Origin: a bacterium
GTDB lineage: Bacteria > Planctomycetota > Planctomycetia > Planctomycetales > Planctomycetaceae
DNA length: 64,000 nt
Reading direction: 5' to 3'
Assembly (NCBI GenBank): GCA_016125225.1
Contig: WGME01000003.1
Span: 930,001 to 994,000 of the forward strand
Below, piece after piece: positions 4,610 through 54,190 of the stretch (its first letter is position 1; every line of letters starts with the position of its first letter). The notes beneath the pieces were generated by a model. That model was not told the DNA's origin and ran no database searches. It saw only the letters and a program-made list of their open reading frames with translations. The translations under genes were made by a program, and so were the position numbers.

Positions 4610-4656
4610 GTTATGCTCCTCATTCAAGCCATTACTCCATCATGATAAATCAGAAG

Positions 4657-4678
4657 CCCAGGGATCGCTATCCCTGGG
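4657..4678. repeat. REP-like palindrome, 3' copy at the RAYT gene
   Basis: CCCAGGGAT and ATCCCTGGG form 9-bp arms around CGCT. The stop codon of the transposase gene (4668-4670) lies inside this palindrome. A second copy stands just upstream of the same gene. Confidence 0.8.
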
Positions 4679-5210
4679 TCTCATCACGCGGGGGTATCAC
4701 TTCCGACCAGACCCATGCTCCCTCACGGGCATGATCGAGAATATACCGATAAACATTTCTTTGATGCGCGACATCGCGGATTCTGACAATTTTGCCACGT
4801 GCGGACCACAGTTGCCCTGTGAAGCCGGCGGCATGAGCGACAAACGTCGCGTGCTTTTTCGCGATTCCGACAGGTTTGCGTGCGTCAACGTTGGGAAGCT
4901 GTACCTGAATATGCGAGTGCTGGGCAGCGCAAGCGATAGCTAATACGCGGCCATGCTGTTGCTGTAATCGTTCCAGTAGTGCCTTGCCGACTACCTCACG
5001 CCATTGTGGCGTCAAGGTTACTGCTGGTTGCTTCAACTCCTGGCGACTCTGTTCAAGCCGTTGATCGTAGATTCCATCTGCTGGAGGATTACGATAATCG
5101 CCTTCGACATGTTCGCGATGATGACGGGTGCGAAAGCCACGTGGGTCACCCGGAAGCCATGACCCATAGGTGCTGATGATGATGTGAAACCAGACGCGTG
5201 ATTGCGACAT
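4668..5210 (-). CDS. REP-associated tyrosine transposase (Y1/HUH, IS200-like)
   Basis: A 180-residue Y1-type HUH protein resembling REP-associated tyrosine transposases (RAYTs), which bind and nick extragenic palindromes in single-stranded DNA. The N-terminal block (TYGSWLPGDPRGF, then RHHREHVEGDY) is typical of the family. The HUH pair is His98 and His100 (AAQHSHIQV), and candidate nucleophiles are Tyr154 and Tyr156 in the helix about 55 residues later. The ATG at 5210 is chosen because the residues before it translate the upstream palindrome. The gene is bracketed by two copies of one palindrome (4657-4678 and 5234-5263), the arrangement expected of a RAYT with its REP substrates. It has no full insertion-sequence ends, so it is probably domesticated rather than self-mobile. 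Confidence 0.78.
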   Translation of the reverse strand: MSQSRVWFHIIISTYGSWLPGDPRGFRTRHHREHVEGDYRNPPADGIYDQRLEQSRQELKQPAVTLTPQWREVVGKALLERLQQQHGRVLAIACAAQHSHIQVQLPNVDARKPVGIAKKHATFVAHAAGFTGQLWSARGKIVRIRDVAHQRNVYRYILDHAREGAWVWSEVIPPRDETQG

Positions 5211-5233
5211 GTCATGATCTCGTGAAGCACCCG

Positions 5234-5263
5234 GAAGCCCAGGGATCGCTATCCCTGGGCTTC
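5234..5263. repeat. REP-like palindrome, 5' copy at the RAYT gene
   Basis: Perfect 13-bp arms (GAAGCCCAGGGAT and ATCCCTGGGCTTC) surround CGCT. It lies between the leuS stop and the transposase start and could also act as a hairpin at the end of the leuS message, though no T-run follows. Confidence 0.85.
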
Positions 5264-5276
5264 GGAGCATGGTACA

Positions 5277-8216
5277 TCATTTCACCACCATGTTCAGCAG
5301 CTTTCCAGCGACGTAGATCACCTTCACGATGGCCTTGCCCTCGAGGTTCGCGGCGATGGTGGCGTGAGCCTTGGCGGCGGCTTCGACGGCGGCTTGATCC
5401 GCATCGGCGGGGACTGTGACTTTGCCGCGGACTTTGCCGTTGATCTGCACCGGGACTTCGATTTCCGATTCGACCAGCAGTGCCGGGTCGAAAGTCGGCC
5501 ACGGTTCATACGCCAATGAACTGTCATGGCCGAGCAGTTGCCATAACTCTTCGGCGATGTGCGGAGCCAGCGGGCTGACCAGTAACACGAACGGTTCCAG
5601 CACCGCCTTCGGTCGCACATCCATCGCGGTGAATTCGTTGGTGAACTCCATCATGCGGCTGATCGCCGTGTTGAACGACAGCTTATCGAGATCCTCGGTC
5701 ACCACTTTGATGGTCTTGTGCAAGGTGCGTAACTGGGCAGCCGTCGGCGGAACATCCTGCACGGCGGATGACAACGCCACGTCATCGGCCCGTTCATCGA
5801 CGAACAACCGCCACACGCGGCCGAGGAAGCGGAACACGCCATCGACGCCCGCCATACTCCACGGCTTGGTCGCTTCGAGCGGCCCCATGAACATCTCGTA
5901 CATCCGCAGCGCATCAGCCCCGTATTCCTTGACCACAAAGTCGGGATTGATGACGTTGCCGCGCGACTTGGACATCTTATAGGATTTTGCATCAACGACA
6001 ATTGAAGGGTCCTCCTTAAGCACCCAACGGTCGCCACGCTTTTCAACTTGATCTTGAGTAAGACGCTTAGGGCCGAGACTTGCCAGACTCGCTGACACTT
6101 CCTTATTTCGAACAGGGATTCGCGAGTCATCAGTAACTTCATAAGTGTCTGTGACCGAGACCCAGCGACCGTCCGTCTCTTGGTGTCCCGTAAATTCCAT
6201 TTCACCGAGAATCATGCCCTGGTTGACCAACCGCTGGAATGGTTCTGGCTTCGAGACGTAGCCGCGATCGAACAGCACCTTATGCCAGAACCGCGAGTAC
6301 AACAGGTGCAGCACGGCGTGTTCGGCACCGCCGATGTAGAGATCGACCGGCAGCCAGTACTTTTCCTTCACCGGGTCGATGAACTGCTCGCCGTTTTTGT
6401 TGTCGCAGAACCGCAGGTAGTACCAGCAACTACCGGCCCATTGCGGCATGCTATTCGTTTCGCGTTTCAACTTCGTGCCATCGGCGGCGGTGGCGTACAG
6501 CCAGTCGTCCGGGGCCTTCGACAACAACGGATCGGGCGTGCCAGTCGGTTGATAGTCTTCCATCTCGGGCAAGCGCACGGGCAAGTCGGATTCACTCACC
6601 GTGCGGACCATGCCGGTCGGTTCACCGTTCGCGTCAAGTTCATGCCAGATGGGGAACGGCTCGCCCCAGTACCGCTGCCGCGAGAACAACCAGTCGCGCA
6701 GACGGTAGTTGACCGCTTCACGCCCGAGACCCGCCGCGGTGAGATCAGCGGTGATTTTCGCCTTGAATTCCTGCGTGGGGAGGCCGGTGTAATCGCCGGA
6801 GTTGATGGCGATGCCTTCGCCGAAATAACTCTCGGCCCCCGGTGACTCACCGGGGGCTAAGACGACGGGCTTGATGTCGATGCCAAACTGCTTCGCGAAT
6901 TCGAAATCGCGCTCATCATGCGCCGGGACCGCCATGATTGCCCCGGTGCCATAGCTGATGAGGACATAATCGGCGATCCACACGGGGACCTGTTCGCCAT
7001 TGACCGGATTGATGACATACCCACCAGTGAAGACGCCGGATTTGTCTTTGGCGAGGTCGGTGCGATCGAGGTCGCTCTTGAGGGCGGCCTGTTGACGGTA
7101 GGCATCGACCGCCGCCTTCTGTTCCCGTGTGGTGATGACATCAACGAGCGGATGTTCCGGCGCGAGCACCATATAGGTGACGCCGTACAAGGTATCGGGC
7201 CGCGTGGTGTAGATGCGGAGCGTGCCGGGTTGTTGGGCTTGCGGGAAACCGGATTGGGTGCGTTGGGCTTTCCACTCCTGGAAGCCCAGGGATGGCGATC
7301 CCTGGGCGTCTTTCTGGCCCTGAACTCTCAACCCTGAACTCTCAACCCTGAACTCGACTTCTGCGCCGACGCTTTTGCCGATCCAGTTTTTCTGCAACGT
7401 CTTGATCGACTCGGTCCAGTTGAGCGATTCGAGTTCCGAGATCAACCGCTCGGCATACGCCGTGATGCGGAGCATCCACTGCCGCATGGGGCGGCGTTCG
7501 ACGGGGAAGCCGCCGACTTCGCTTTTGCCGTCGATCACTTCTTCGTTGGCCAACACCGTTCCCAGGGAAGGACACCAGTTGACCGGTGCTTCGTGAATGT
7601 AGGCGAGACGTTGGGCGTCGCGGTATTTGCGGACGGCGATGGTTTCGCCCCCGGGTGACTCACCGGGGGCTAAGACGGCGCGGACGTCGGCGGGAATTGG
7701 CAACTCGGCGATCGGGCGTCCTTTGCCGACACGCCGCATGCCATCGGGACCAGTCCACGGATAGTCCGGGTCGTACCAGGTGTCGAAGAGTTGCAGGAAG
7801 ATCCACTGCGTCCAACGAACGTAGTCCGGGTCGGTGGTGGCGAGTTCGCGTGACCAGTCGTAACTGAAGCCGAGGCTTTTCAACTGGCGTTTGAACGTGC
7901 CGATGTTCTTTTCGGTGGTGACACGGGGATGCGTCCCCGTTTTGATGGCATGCTGCTCGGCGGGAAGACCGAACGCGTCCCAGCCCATCGGATGCAGCAC
8001 GTTCTTGCCGCGCATGCGGTTGTATCGGCAGACGATATCGGTCGCTGTGTACCCCTCCGGGTGCCCCACATGGAGACCATCACCCGAGGGGTAGGGAAAC
8101 ATGTCGAGGACGTACAGCTTCTCTTTCGCTGGGTCCATTTCGACGCGAAACGTCTGGTGCGATTCCCAGTAGGCTTGCCATTTGGCTTCGATGCGGGCGG
8201 CGTCGTATCGGGGCAT
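5277..8216 (-). CDS. leuS: Leucine-tRNA ligase with repeat-derived in-frame inserts
   Basis: Class I aminoacyl-tRNA synthetase that charges tRNA-Leu. The HIGH motif is HVGH (residues 49-52) and the KMSKS loop is at 747-751. The CP1 editing region (TTRPDTLYG) and the C-terminal segment ([11 protein letters not shown]) are present. At 979 residues it is longer than the usual 820-960. The extra length includes three palindromic inserts in surface-loop positions: a LAPGESPG peptide near residues 181-190, a 38-residue Gln/Gly-rich insert around 288-325 that contains the REP-like palindrome and a 14-bp tandem repeat, and a second LAPGESPG near 454-461. All keep the frame and leave the catalytic motifs untouched. 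ATG at 8216; it is the first gene of a minus-strand series running to dinD. Confidence 0.96.
6835..6857. repeat. Palindromic element family B, copy 1, inside leuS
   Basis: GCCCCCGGTGA and its reverse complement surround a single base, followed by CTAAGAC on the plus strand. On the coding strand it reads LAPGESPG. The same sequence with one added base recurs at 7647-7670. Confidence 0.8.
7284..7307. repeat. REP-like palindrome inside leuS
   Basis: GCCCAGGGAT and ATCCCTGGGC surround GGCG. It is the same family as the two copies that bracket the transposase at 4668-5210, and it lies in the inserted part of the LeuRS editing region. Confidence 0.85.
7319..7355. repeat. 14-bp tandem repeat inside leuS
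   Basis: CCTGAACTCTCAAC is present twice and then in part (CCTGAACTC). It lies immediately beside the REP-like palindrome in leuS and belongs to the same 38-residue insert. Confidence 0.8.
7647..7670. repeat. Palindromic element family B, copy 2, inside leuS
   Basis: GCCCCCGGGTGA and TCACCGGGGGC nearly form a perfect palindrome, again followed by CTAAGAC. It encodes LAPGESPG in the same frame as copy 1. Confidence 0.8.
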
Positions 8217-51958: not shown

Positions 51959-54190
51959 ATGAAAAAGAAACTCGGTGGCCTGAAGGGCTTCAATGCAAAA
52001 GAGTTTTTGATCAACCATGGCGAAAAGCTGGGGTTTGGTACCGGTGTGTTGATTTGTCTGGCGACCTTGGGGCTGACCAACTGGTCGCGGTATGACAAGA
52101 CGCCCCAGGAACTGGAAAAGAAGGCCACCGACGCCAAGAACCGGATTCTGTCGACCACCTGGCCCGACGACAAACGGGCAACCTTCGGCCTCAAGGACTT
52201 TGCCGGTCAGGCTCAGGAAGTCCGTGGTCCTCTCTCGATCACTCCCTACGAATACTCCACCAACATGTGGTGGCCGTTGTACCGCAAGCAGGAACTGGCA
52301 AAAGAGCCGGAACTGCTGGCCGTGCTCGATCTGCAAGCCAAATCCGGCGTTTTCACCTTGGGGATTCAACCCAAAACCCCCGCGATGGATGGCATGATGG
52401 CCGATGGATCGGGAGCCATGATTGGTCCCGACGGCAGCCCGGTGGCCGCCAATACCCCGGCTCTGCCGGATGATTTCGACAAGCAGTTCTCTCCCGTAAC
52501 GGGTCGCGGCGCGACAGGTCCTGGTGGTGCGATGGGTCCTGGCGGTGCCATGGGACCCGGTGGCGCGATGGGACCGGGGGCGGCTCATGGCGGTGCCTTC
52601 GCACCTCCCGAATCGGCGATGATGCCCATGGCGGTCGATGGTGGCATGATGTCCCCAGAAATGATGATGGGGATGGGATCTGGCATGGGGATGGTGAGTG
52701 GACTGGAATCCCGCGGCGAACGCTATGTGGCAGTGCGTGGTGTCTGGCCGCTTTGGCAGCAGATGGAAAAGATGCAGCGGGCTTTGAATCTGCAAACCAC
52801 GAACGACGCTCGCAATTTCCTGCAGCTGCTCGATTTTGTGCTGGAACGGCAAACCGCCGTCGCCGGGACCGATCCCTGGTCGGGCGATTGGGAAAAGGTC
52901 GACATTCAGCGAGCCTTGGATGTGCTCGATGAAGCCTACGACTTCGCCATTGATGAAGTTGATCCGCAAATTATTGATACCGTGATCACCATGCCGCTGC
53001 CGGCCCGTCTGGTTGGTGTCTGGGGGGATACGGCCACTCATCCGCGGATCGAGAACTTCAAACTTCCCCCAGCGGAACAGGCTCGTATTCAGAAGTTGGA
53101 ACAGAAGCTGATCGACGAGTTCGAACGCTTCCGTCTGGAAGAGGAAAAGAAGACCATCCGTCCGAAAGGATTTGCAGGTCGACAACGCAATATTCGGTCA
53201 ATGGCCGAAACTATGTTCCAGAGCGAGTACTCGGGGTCATTCGATACGGCCATGCGGACCACCATGGAACAAGATCCCAGCATGCGGATGCAAATGCCCG
53301 ACTTGAAGTCGCGGTTGACGGCCGTCGGCCGGTTGCTTCTCTTCCGTTATATGGACTTTGATGTGCGGCCTGGCTATGCCTATCGGTATCGCGTCAAGCT
53401 GATCTTGCGGAATCCCAATTTTGAACGCCCGCTGGACCAGGTCATTGAACCATCGGTTGCAGAGGGTTCGGATCGCGAAACACCCTGGAGTAATGCCTCG
53501 AATGCCGCAGTGGTGCCACAGTCGGTCAATTACTTCCTGGAAGATGTTGATCGCGATCCGGTGAATGAGCAGCGACCGACTTCGAGCCGTCCCTTGGCGA
53601 AAATGGACTTCTACGAATGGGACCCCGAAGTGGGAACCATGATTCACGACACCGTGGAAGTGAAAACCTATGGCCAGTTTCTCGGCGGGACCAAAGAAAG
53701 CCTGCGGTTAGATGTGGCCAAGCCAAAGTTTGAAGATACGGAAGTGACCTTCCGTTCCGACGACCTTCTGCTGGATACACTTGGCGACGTCCGGCTCGAC
53801 CCGGCGGTCCATCCCGATTTGAAATTGCCGAGAGAACTGCGCGGGCATGCGGGGCTGAATCCTGAAGCCATCGTGGTCGATCCATCAGGCCAGCTTGAGG
53901 ATCTGACTCCCAAGAAGACGGTGCCAGACCCGATGCAGACCTTTCTGTCAAACTATGTGAAGCGCGAACGGGCACCCTTCGACGCGATCAAAAATAAGGA
54001 AGATCAACCAGCCCCGGGGATGCTCGATGGTGGGGCTGGTATGTCATTTGACTCGGCCATGGCCCCGGAAATGATGATGATGGGCGCTGGGGCAGGGATG
54101 CAGCCTCCGCGTAAGACGAAAAAGAGCACCCGCAAAATCAAAGGGGGCGCCAGTTATGATCCTATGGGCATGGGATTTGGTGGCCCATAG
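51959..54190 (+). CDS. Second membrane-anchored protein of the pilus operon
   Basis: A 743-residue bitopic protein: a basic N-terminus (MKKKLGGLKGFNAKEF), a membrane helix (FGTGVLICLATLGLTNW), then a periplasmic part with a collagen-like GPGGAM repeat (52517-52570), a coiled-coil region (EQKLIDEFERFRLEEEKK) and a C-terminal beta-rich domain (YMDFDVRPGYAYRYRVKLILRN). The end is Met/Gly-rich and then basic. It is the last gene of the operon and is closed by a terminator at 54219. Its role is inferred only from its place beside the PilM-like gene. Confidence 0.6.
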   Translation: MKKKLGGLKGFNAKEFLINHGEKLGFGTGVLICLATLGLTNWSRYDKTPQELEKKATDAKNRILSTTWPDDKRATFGLKDFAGQAQEVRGPLSITPYEYSTNMWWPLYRKQELAKEPELLAVLDLQAKSGVFTLGIQPKTPAMDGMMADGSGAMIGPDGSPVAANTPALPDDFDKQFSPVTGRGATGPGGAMGPGGAMGPGGAMGPGAAHGGAFAPPESAMMPMAVDGGMMSPEMMMGMGSGMGMVSGLESRGERYVAVRGVWPLWQQMEKMQRALNLQTTNDARNFLQLLDFVLERQTAVAGTDPWSGDWEKVDIQRALDVLDEAYDFAIDEVDPQIIDTVITMPLPARLVGVWGDTATHPRIENFKLPPAEQARIQKLEQKLIDEFERFRLEEEKKTIRPKGFAGRQRNIRSMAETMFQSEYSGSFDTAMRTTMEQDPSMRMQMPDLKSRLTAVGRLLLFRYMDFDVRPGYAYRYRVKLILRNPNFERPLDQVIEPSVAEGSDRETPWSNASNAAVVPQSVNYFLEDVDRDPVNEQRPTSSRPLAKMDFYEWDPEVGTMIHDTVEVKTYGQFLGGTKESLRLDVAKPKFEDTEVTFRSDDLLLDTLGDVRLDPAVHPDLKLPRELRGHAGLNPEAIVVDPSGQLEDLTPKKTVPDPMQTFLSNYVKRERAPFDAIKNKEDQPAPGMLDGGAGMSFDSAMAPEMMMMGAGAGMQPPRKTKKSTRKIKGGASYDPMGMGFGGP
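52517..52570 (+). repeat. 18-bp tandem repeat encoding GPGGAM
   Basis: Three copies of an 18-bp unit give three GPGGAM hexapeptides, a collagen-like stretch inside the pilus-operon protein. Confidence 0.85.

Follow-up and report, generated by a model that had tools for sequence, protein, structure and literature searches.

Three short palindromic segments within the leucyl-tRNA synthetase gene (leuS) of a planctomycete are, in all likelihood, REP-type repeats of two unrelated families that entered the gene, survived in variable loops of the protein and can be read in frame. The gene belongs to a genome (G000) of 6.35 Mb in 42 contigs, of which we analysed a window of 64,000 nucleotides (G000:C27:930001-994000); it occupies positions 5277..8216 of the window on the minus strand (8216 -> 5277) and holds two copies of one palindrome (A) and a single copy of another (B), each belonging to a dispersed family. 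These observations add a planctomycete to the bacteria in which REPs are inserted in frame, here with a sister species in which one site is empty; they also show that two independent repeat families can reside in a single essential gene, at sites that mark loops where the synthetase tolerates extra peptide.

Repeat copies in the leuS reading frame

The leuS frame is unbroken over 979 aa and both catalytic motifs, HVGH (aa 49) and KMSKS (aa 747), are preserved, as the original prediction had stated. Its product scores 1028 bits against the NCBIfam model leuS_bact (cut-off 548), contains the synthetase and editing domains in Pfam and was the only full-length LeuRS match in a search of its own genome; the top named matches came from two Schlesneria metagenome assemblies, in a search that possibly excluded the own genome. 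For comparison, 48 LeuRS sequences were aligned, one per genome and including our own, from 48 of 59 genomes; the other 11 include G002. G001 is the sister species, G001 and G002 are of the same genus as G000, and G003 is of another genus. The idea that the insertions make this LeuRS longer than usual is wrong among relatives, since its 979 aa compare with 896-1066 aa in the others, bar one 707-aa fragment.

Palindrome A occurs in the window at 6835-6857, where it is perfect, and at 7647-7670, where one arm has one extra base; palindrome B occurs at 7284-7307, within leuS, and at 4656-4679 and 5237-5260. Neither appeared in 100 shuffles (dinucleotide shuffles for A). Both A copies have TAAGAC behind them on the plus strand and read VLAPGESPG in the leuS frame, from aa 452 and aa 181, in line with the LAPGESPG of the original prediction, and the frame reads through the B copy likewise.

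The element at site 1 (7647..7676, minus strand) is a 30-nt A half-element, comprising the GTCTTA tag at 7671-7676 and the hairpin at 7647-7670, and encodes aa 181-190; the 30-nt form, with its extra base, is found here only among the A loci examined. Between fixed anchors there are 17 residues at this position. Of the 46 other sequences in which both anchors are present, 37 have 8 residues and seven have 2-5, with longer stretches in G006 (18) and G028 (27); G001 reads ADVRSQGDIAVRNY where G000 has 23 residues. The net gain relative to those 37 relatives is nine residues and, because this amounts to 27 nt from a 30-nt element, the borders are fixed only to within one codon. On this alignment site 1 is an insertion, for which the sister species and most relatives are empty; nor do all relatives carry the same peptide here in diverged DNA, the pattern that the original prediction had linked to ordinary loops. 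The long loops of G006 and G028 do mean that site 1 varies anyway, which counts against our explanation. The loop of G006 reads HLAPSDPPGD in non-palindromic DNA and might be either a decayed older insert or a coincidence, and that of G028 is tandem-repeat DNA (a heptamer array). Comparison with the solved Thermus LeuRS places site 1 within aa 146-202, some 57 residues that have no counterpart in Thermus.

Site 3 (6835..6863, minus strand) is a 29-nt A half-element with its tag at 6858-6863 and its hairpin at 6835-6857, encoding VLAPGESPG from aa 452 within what corresponds to an editing-domain loop of the Thermus enzyme. This loop (aa 452-461 here) is hypervariable, ranging from 17 to 155 residues in the 48 LeuRS, with 18 in G000 and 93 in G001; since 18 lies within that range, a net-gain insertion cannot be claimed, and we infer that the element was inserted rather than that it replaced existing codons. 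Site 2, the B hairpin (7281..7310, minus strand; core 7284-7307, aa 304-311), lies at the entry of the editing domain in the Thermus comparison, in a region of 9-109 residues in 47 sequences and of 44 in both G000 and G001. Placed by alignment, the A and B copies would all have fallen in variable loops. The original prediction of three comparable insertions that lengthen LeuRS is not sustained, since only site 1 has a clean empty counterpart and site 3 shows no net gain.

Two further features of the window were recorded. A small palindrome at 7923-7940, ACGGGGATGCGTCCCCGT, falls within the codons of the conserved LeuRS motif TGTHPR and is probably ordinary coding sequence, and a tandem array of an 18-base unit in ~4 copies lies at 52506-52582.

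Two dispersed repeat families

The original prediction had proposed counting both palindromes across the genome. With up to two mismatches, the core of A was found at 27 forward places in G000 and B at 87 (controls 0 for both), and a search for A with its tag gave 58 places (control 1). Palindromes of 20-40 bp in many copies, mostly between genes, are characteristic of REPs, and both families conform, with 14 of 22 loci intergenic for A and 36 of 47 for B. It is therefore barely credible that the leuS segments are ordinary LeuRS loops whose DNA became palindromic by convergence. Other LeuRS do have site-3 loops of similar length, and Thermus aligns RPGE there, but the A copies match dispersed repeats complete with tag and hairpin, and B likewise; these genome-wide copies contradict convergence, as do the barren shuffles and the empty site 1 in 37 of 46 relatives.

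After removal of three opposite-strand shadows, 55 A hairpins remained, of which 50 pair up as 25 inverted dimers, 76-107 bp long, whose tags face outward. Judged from its sequence, family A is a GTCTTA-tagged, REPIN-like inverted dimer of ~90 bp, restricted to the genus and unrelated to family B; a related pattern was detected in four of 59 genomes, namely G000, G001, G002 and, as one copy, G003. Besides the 14 intergenic loci, five of the 22 A loci lie at gene ends and three were scored inside genes, two of these in doubtful N-terminal extensions, gene calls for the placement of repeats having been made with a simple codon-score predictor. Only five of the 55 hairpins are unpaired: the two in leuS, one (L016) with a decayed partner still visible, one outside predicted genes (C42:20580) and one that is a poor match (C36:229450). 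The scarcity of single hairpins is a trait of G000 only, and in G001 and G002 single A hairpins and double-tagged single hairpins also occur. Among the latter, three loci in G002 (L275, L278 and L279) have GTCTTA on both sides of a single hairpin, as the central deletion of a dimer would leave. A predicted 518-aa ORF of G001 contains an A hairpin at about aa 337 (L325, C52, near 1544), perhaps a second instance in the genus of A within coding sequence.

Both leuS copies of A are half-dimers, of the same half and in the same orientation. They are direct rather than inverted, which rules out that they form one dimer with an 813-bp spacer. Their agreement in half, orientation and frame at a distance of 813 bp, in a genome where two of only five unpaired A hairpins are these very copies, could alternatively mean that one copy was inserted and the second was copied from it by intragenic gene conversion. 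We consider this unlikely, because no flanking homology is evident past the element and the same half is available as a potential donor in many other A dimers. Separate entry of two half-elements, which we prefer, may reflect what a gene can tolerate. Among 20 distinct A dimers that were recovered, 12 have no open frame of the six and eight have one or two, while the 29-nt A half is open in three of six frames; since most dimers are unreadable in any frame, half-dimers are perhaps all that a gene can tolerate, and those in leuS, both the same half and both in its open frame, would have been tolerated for this reason.

The hairpin of family B is REP-like, 30 bp long and usually placed close to the 3' end of a gene. 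It was found in 10 of 59 genomes, with forward/reverse counts of 90/87 in G000, 99/103 in G001, 38/44 in G002 (64% complete) and 1-11 in the other seven. We examined 50 of the 87 copies in G000 (47 loci and the three window copies), a sample weighted to the best matches. In addition to the 36 intergenic copies, 31 of which have the 3' end of a gene no more than 60 bp away, the 47 loci include six that overlap a gene end and five scored inside a gene; we think that the N-terminal stretches in which three of these five lie are start-codon errors. Mid-gene copies among those examined are therefore found in leuS, in a ThuA/DUF7133 protein (L031) and in a FabA-like protein (L115), and the last two read RPGIAIPGR. 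Five or all six reading frames of the B 30-mer are open in nine loop variants. At 14 of 50 copies the hairpin is followed on one strand, no more than 12 nt away, by a TTTT run, as against 3.3% of random positions from the same loci (coding DNA included).

The RAYT-like gene and the site-2 hairpin

Directly downstream of leuS lies a gene for a RAYT-like HUH/Tyr transposase (4668..5210, minus strand; listed as an ORF at 4668-5270 with a likely start near 5210). Its H-x-H motif and a following tyrosine align in 16 homologues, in the HUH/Y1 layout, but the middle residue of the motif is Ser and not hydrophobic, which counts against our explanation. The protein has no match in Pfam and one in NCBIfam, far below the cut-off, and the gene is absent from the list returned by a Y1_Tnp search of its own genome. 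One B hairpin stands between leuS and this gene (5237..5260) and another overlaps its stop codon (4656..4679), both being recorded without strand. The layout is the same in G001, where a homologue with 64% identity is likewise next to leuS and bracketed by B-type hairpins. That B brackets the neighbouring transposase was correctly anticipated, and the proposed tie between the repeats and the RAYT next door stands for B, whose flanking copies recur in two species, and finds no support for A. The stem and tag of A are different, and no A hairpin was found within ~1.5 kb of RAYT/Y1 at the five loci examined in G000 (L080-L084); the nearest RAYT/Y1 found in G000 is ~2.4 kb from an A dimer. At two RAYT loci of G003 (L247 and L261) each RAYT gene is surrounded by three palindromes GCCCCCCTCCANTGGAGGGGGGC that bear TCTTA as a tag and CCG as a tail; their tag and GCCCCC stem resemble those of A, which suggests the kind of transposase that A may once have had.

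A pairing of B with the RAYT-like protein is thus indicated by two species of one genus (G000 and G001). The next RAYT homologues, in G051 (48% identity) and G023 (47%), have no flanking B, and six B-bearing genomes have no RAYT homologue of at least 47% identity; both facts count against our explanation.

The B copy at site 2 has a palindromic counterpart at the same place in leuS of G001. Across 2897 aligned bases the two genes share 77.2% identity, and 58% at third positions, yet the stems of both site-2 palindromes are perfect. The stem in G000 ends in AT/AT, as do the RAYT flanks of that genome, from which one loop base differs; the stem in G001 ends in AC/GT and the palindrome is identical to both RAYT flanks there. 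This exact form occurs at seven places in G001, of ~100 B copies, and three of the seven constitute the leuS-RAYT cluster. The coding B copy and the RAYT flanks have therefore, to all appearances, changed in concert. Inheritance combined with local homogenisation, or else repeated insertion at one spot, would explain the likeness; selection on the stem is a further candidate.

Selection is the substance of another explanation, under which B, and perhaps A, is maintained as a functional RNA or DNA hairpin, such as a terminator or mRNA stabiliser, and the genic copies are by-products or regulators of leuS. The stem conserved amid divergent third positions, the accumulation of intergenic copies near gene 3' ends and the excess of T runs all accord with such a role, but 36 of 50 B copies are without a T run, 3'-end placement is equally typical of REPs (PMC3733652, in the available text), the arm at site 1 is bulged, and local homogenisation accounts for the site-2 stem. 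We regard a functional hairpin as improbable. On the preferred reading, that of REP-type repeats which entered leuS, B would belong to a REPtron-like unit in which the RAYT-like protein is bracketed by B, in the sister species also. Either that protein or recombination between neighbouring copies may spread and refresh B, and refreshing would account for a coding copy that stays palindromic and matches the local variant. We infer RAYT catalysis, the order of events and the neutrality of the peptides from sequence, and no copy of A or B was caught moving. Whether REPs owe their copying and refreshing to a RAYT or to gene conversion could be tested directly in the leuS-RAYT neighbourhood.

Beside the site-2 hairpin, the coding sequence also contains a tandem array with a 14-base unit of two heptamers (7318..7355, minus strand; TRF, 2.7 copies, 100% match), which the original prediction had missed; a related array is present in G001. 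Arrays were considered as regular companions of the repeats and this was rejected, there being a period-7 array within 80 bp at none of 47 B and none of 22 A loci under two settings of a strict detector, which also missed the TRF-found array itself. As far as these tests go, the leuS array next to the B hairpin is a local feature.

Known repeat systems and shared loops

Intragenic REPs are described, in the available text of PMC3733652, as lying in frame, in tRNA synthetase genes among others and in some genes twice; location near gene 3' ends is typical, and the five phyla for which CGTC repeats are reported there do not include Planctomycetes. The planctomycete repeats are like those GTAG/CGTC-tagged REPs in being short palindromes in many copies, with a tag at one end, inverted dimers, 3'-end placement and in-frame genic copies. 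They are unlike them in that A has TTA between GTC and its G-C stem and is, as far as that text extends, not a printed family, and B is without such a tag. The base before GTCTTA in 43 contexts is C in 20, T in 14, G in six and A in three, giving CGTC or TGTC in 34. CGTC-tagged REPs have CGTC, TGTC or CCTC at one end and open their stem with two A-T pairs; the stem of A begins GCCCCC. A REPIN comprises two inverted REPs and a spacer, as do the 25 A dimers, unlike the leuS copies; the REPIN paper, in the part available (PMC3116915), treats single REPs as remnants and doublets as extragenic, with REPs beside RAYT genes, and A differs in that no RAYT was found beside it in G000. The arrangement of a REPtron, with a HUH/Tyr gene flanked on both sides by a dispersed REP, is seen for B in G000 and G001 and not in G051 or G023.

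Class 3 of TnpA-Y1 is reported mainly from Planctomycetes, Acidobacteria and Proteobacteria, flanked by atypical hairpins that sometimes occur in high copy, and frame-keeping REP insertions inside tnpA-REP genes are described in the same source (PMC6006769, in the text available). The window protein departs from this class, reading YILDHA in place of the Y----Q motif, and among 18 B copies the stem is mostly preceded by GAA or GAC, the 5' foot CnGA not being constant. The Rickettsia palindromic elements, to which the leuS segments had been likened, are 100-150 bp long and lie in frame in housekeeping genes, with orthologues carrying different inserts at the same place, according to the accessible portion of PMC3767692. 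The likeness is apt for in-frame palindromes in an essential gene; at 29-30 nt and with other sequence, the leuS elements are closer to the REP, REPIN and REPtron systems.

In-frame REPs in genes are already known; what is new is the apparent concerted change of the coding B copy with the RAYT flanks and the presence of different repeats at the same loops. The open PMC literature, which defined our scope to the exclusion of subscription papers, yielded no report of planctomycete leuS with REPs or of a coding REP changing with a transposase locus. This is a known phenomenon, unusually clear in this leuS.

Wherever B lies in mid-gene, in all three genes, a species of the same genus has repeat DNA at the corresponding codons. 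In the FabA-like protein, the position of the B copy is occupied by heptamer arrays of one type in G001 and G002 and of another type in G003, and homologues examined from the more distant G037-G047 have no such insert. In the ThuA/DUF7133 protein the B copy has as its counterpart a B-like palindrome in G002 and a heptamer array in G001, and the loop there is also longer in two other relatives (L293 and L294). Repeats at the same loops may reflect survivor bias or the replacement of one repeat by another, a question that the Rickettsia paper, in the portion available, leaves open for its own elements (PMC3767692). Tentatively, and with more doubt than confidence, we suggest that certain protein loops of this genus repeatedly serve as docking sites for unrelated repeats and that a coding REP evolves in concert with its neighbouring REPtron; if so, leuS-RAYT would offer a natural laboratory in which REPs are copied and homogenised within coding DNA.

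Heptamer arrays were also noted in frame within loops of the ThuA/DUF7133 protein, the FabA-like protein and leuS of G028 (L284, L295-L298 and L035). In the FabA-like protein of G000 (L295), ~45 codons past the B copy, a degenerate B-like palindrome is followed by an AACCCTC array, and this second loop contains arrays in G001-G003 too.
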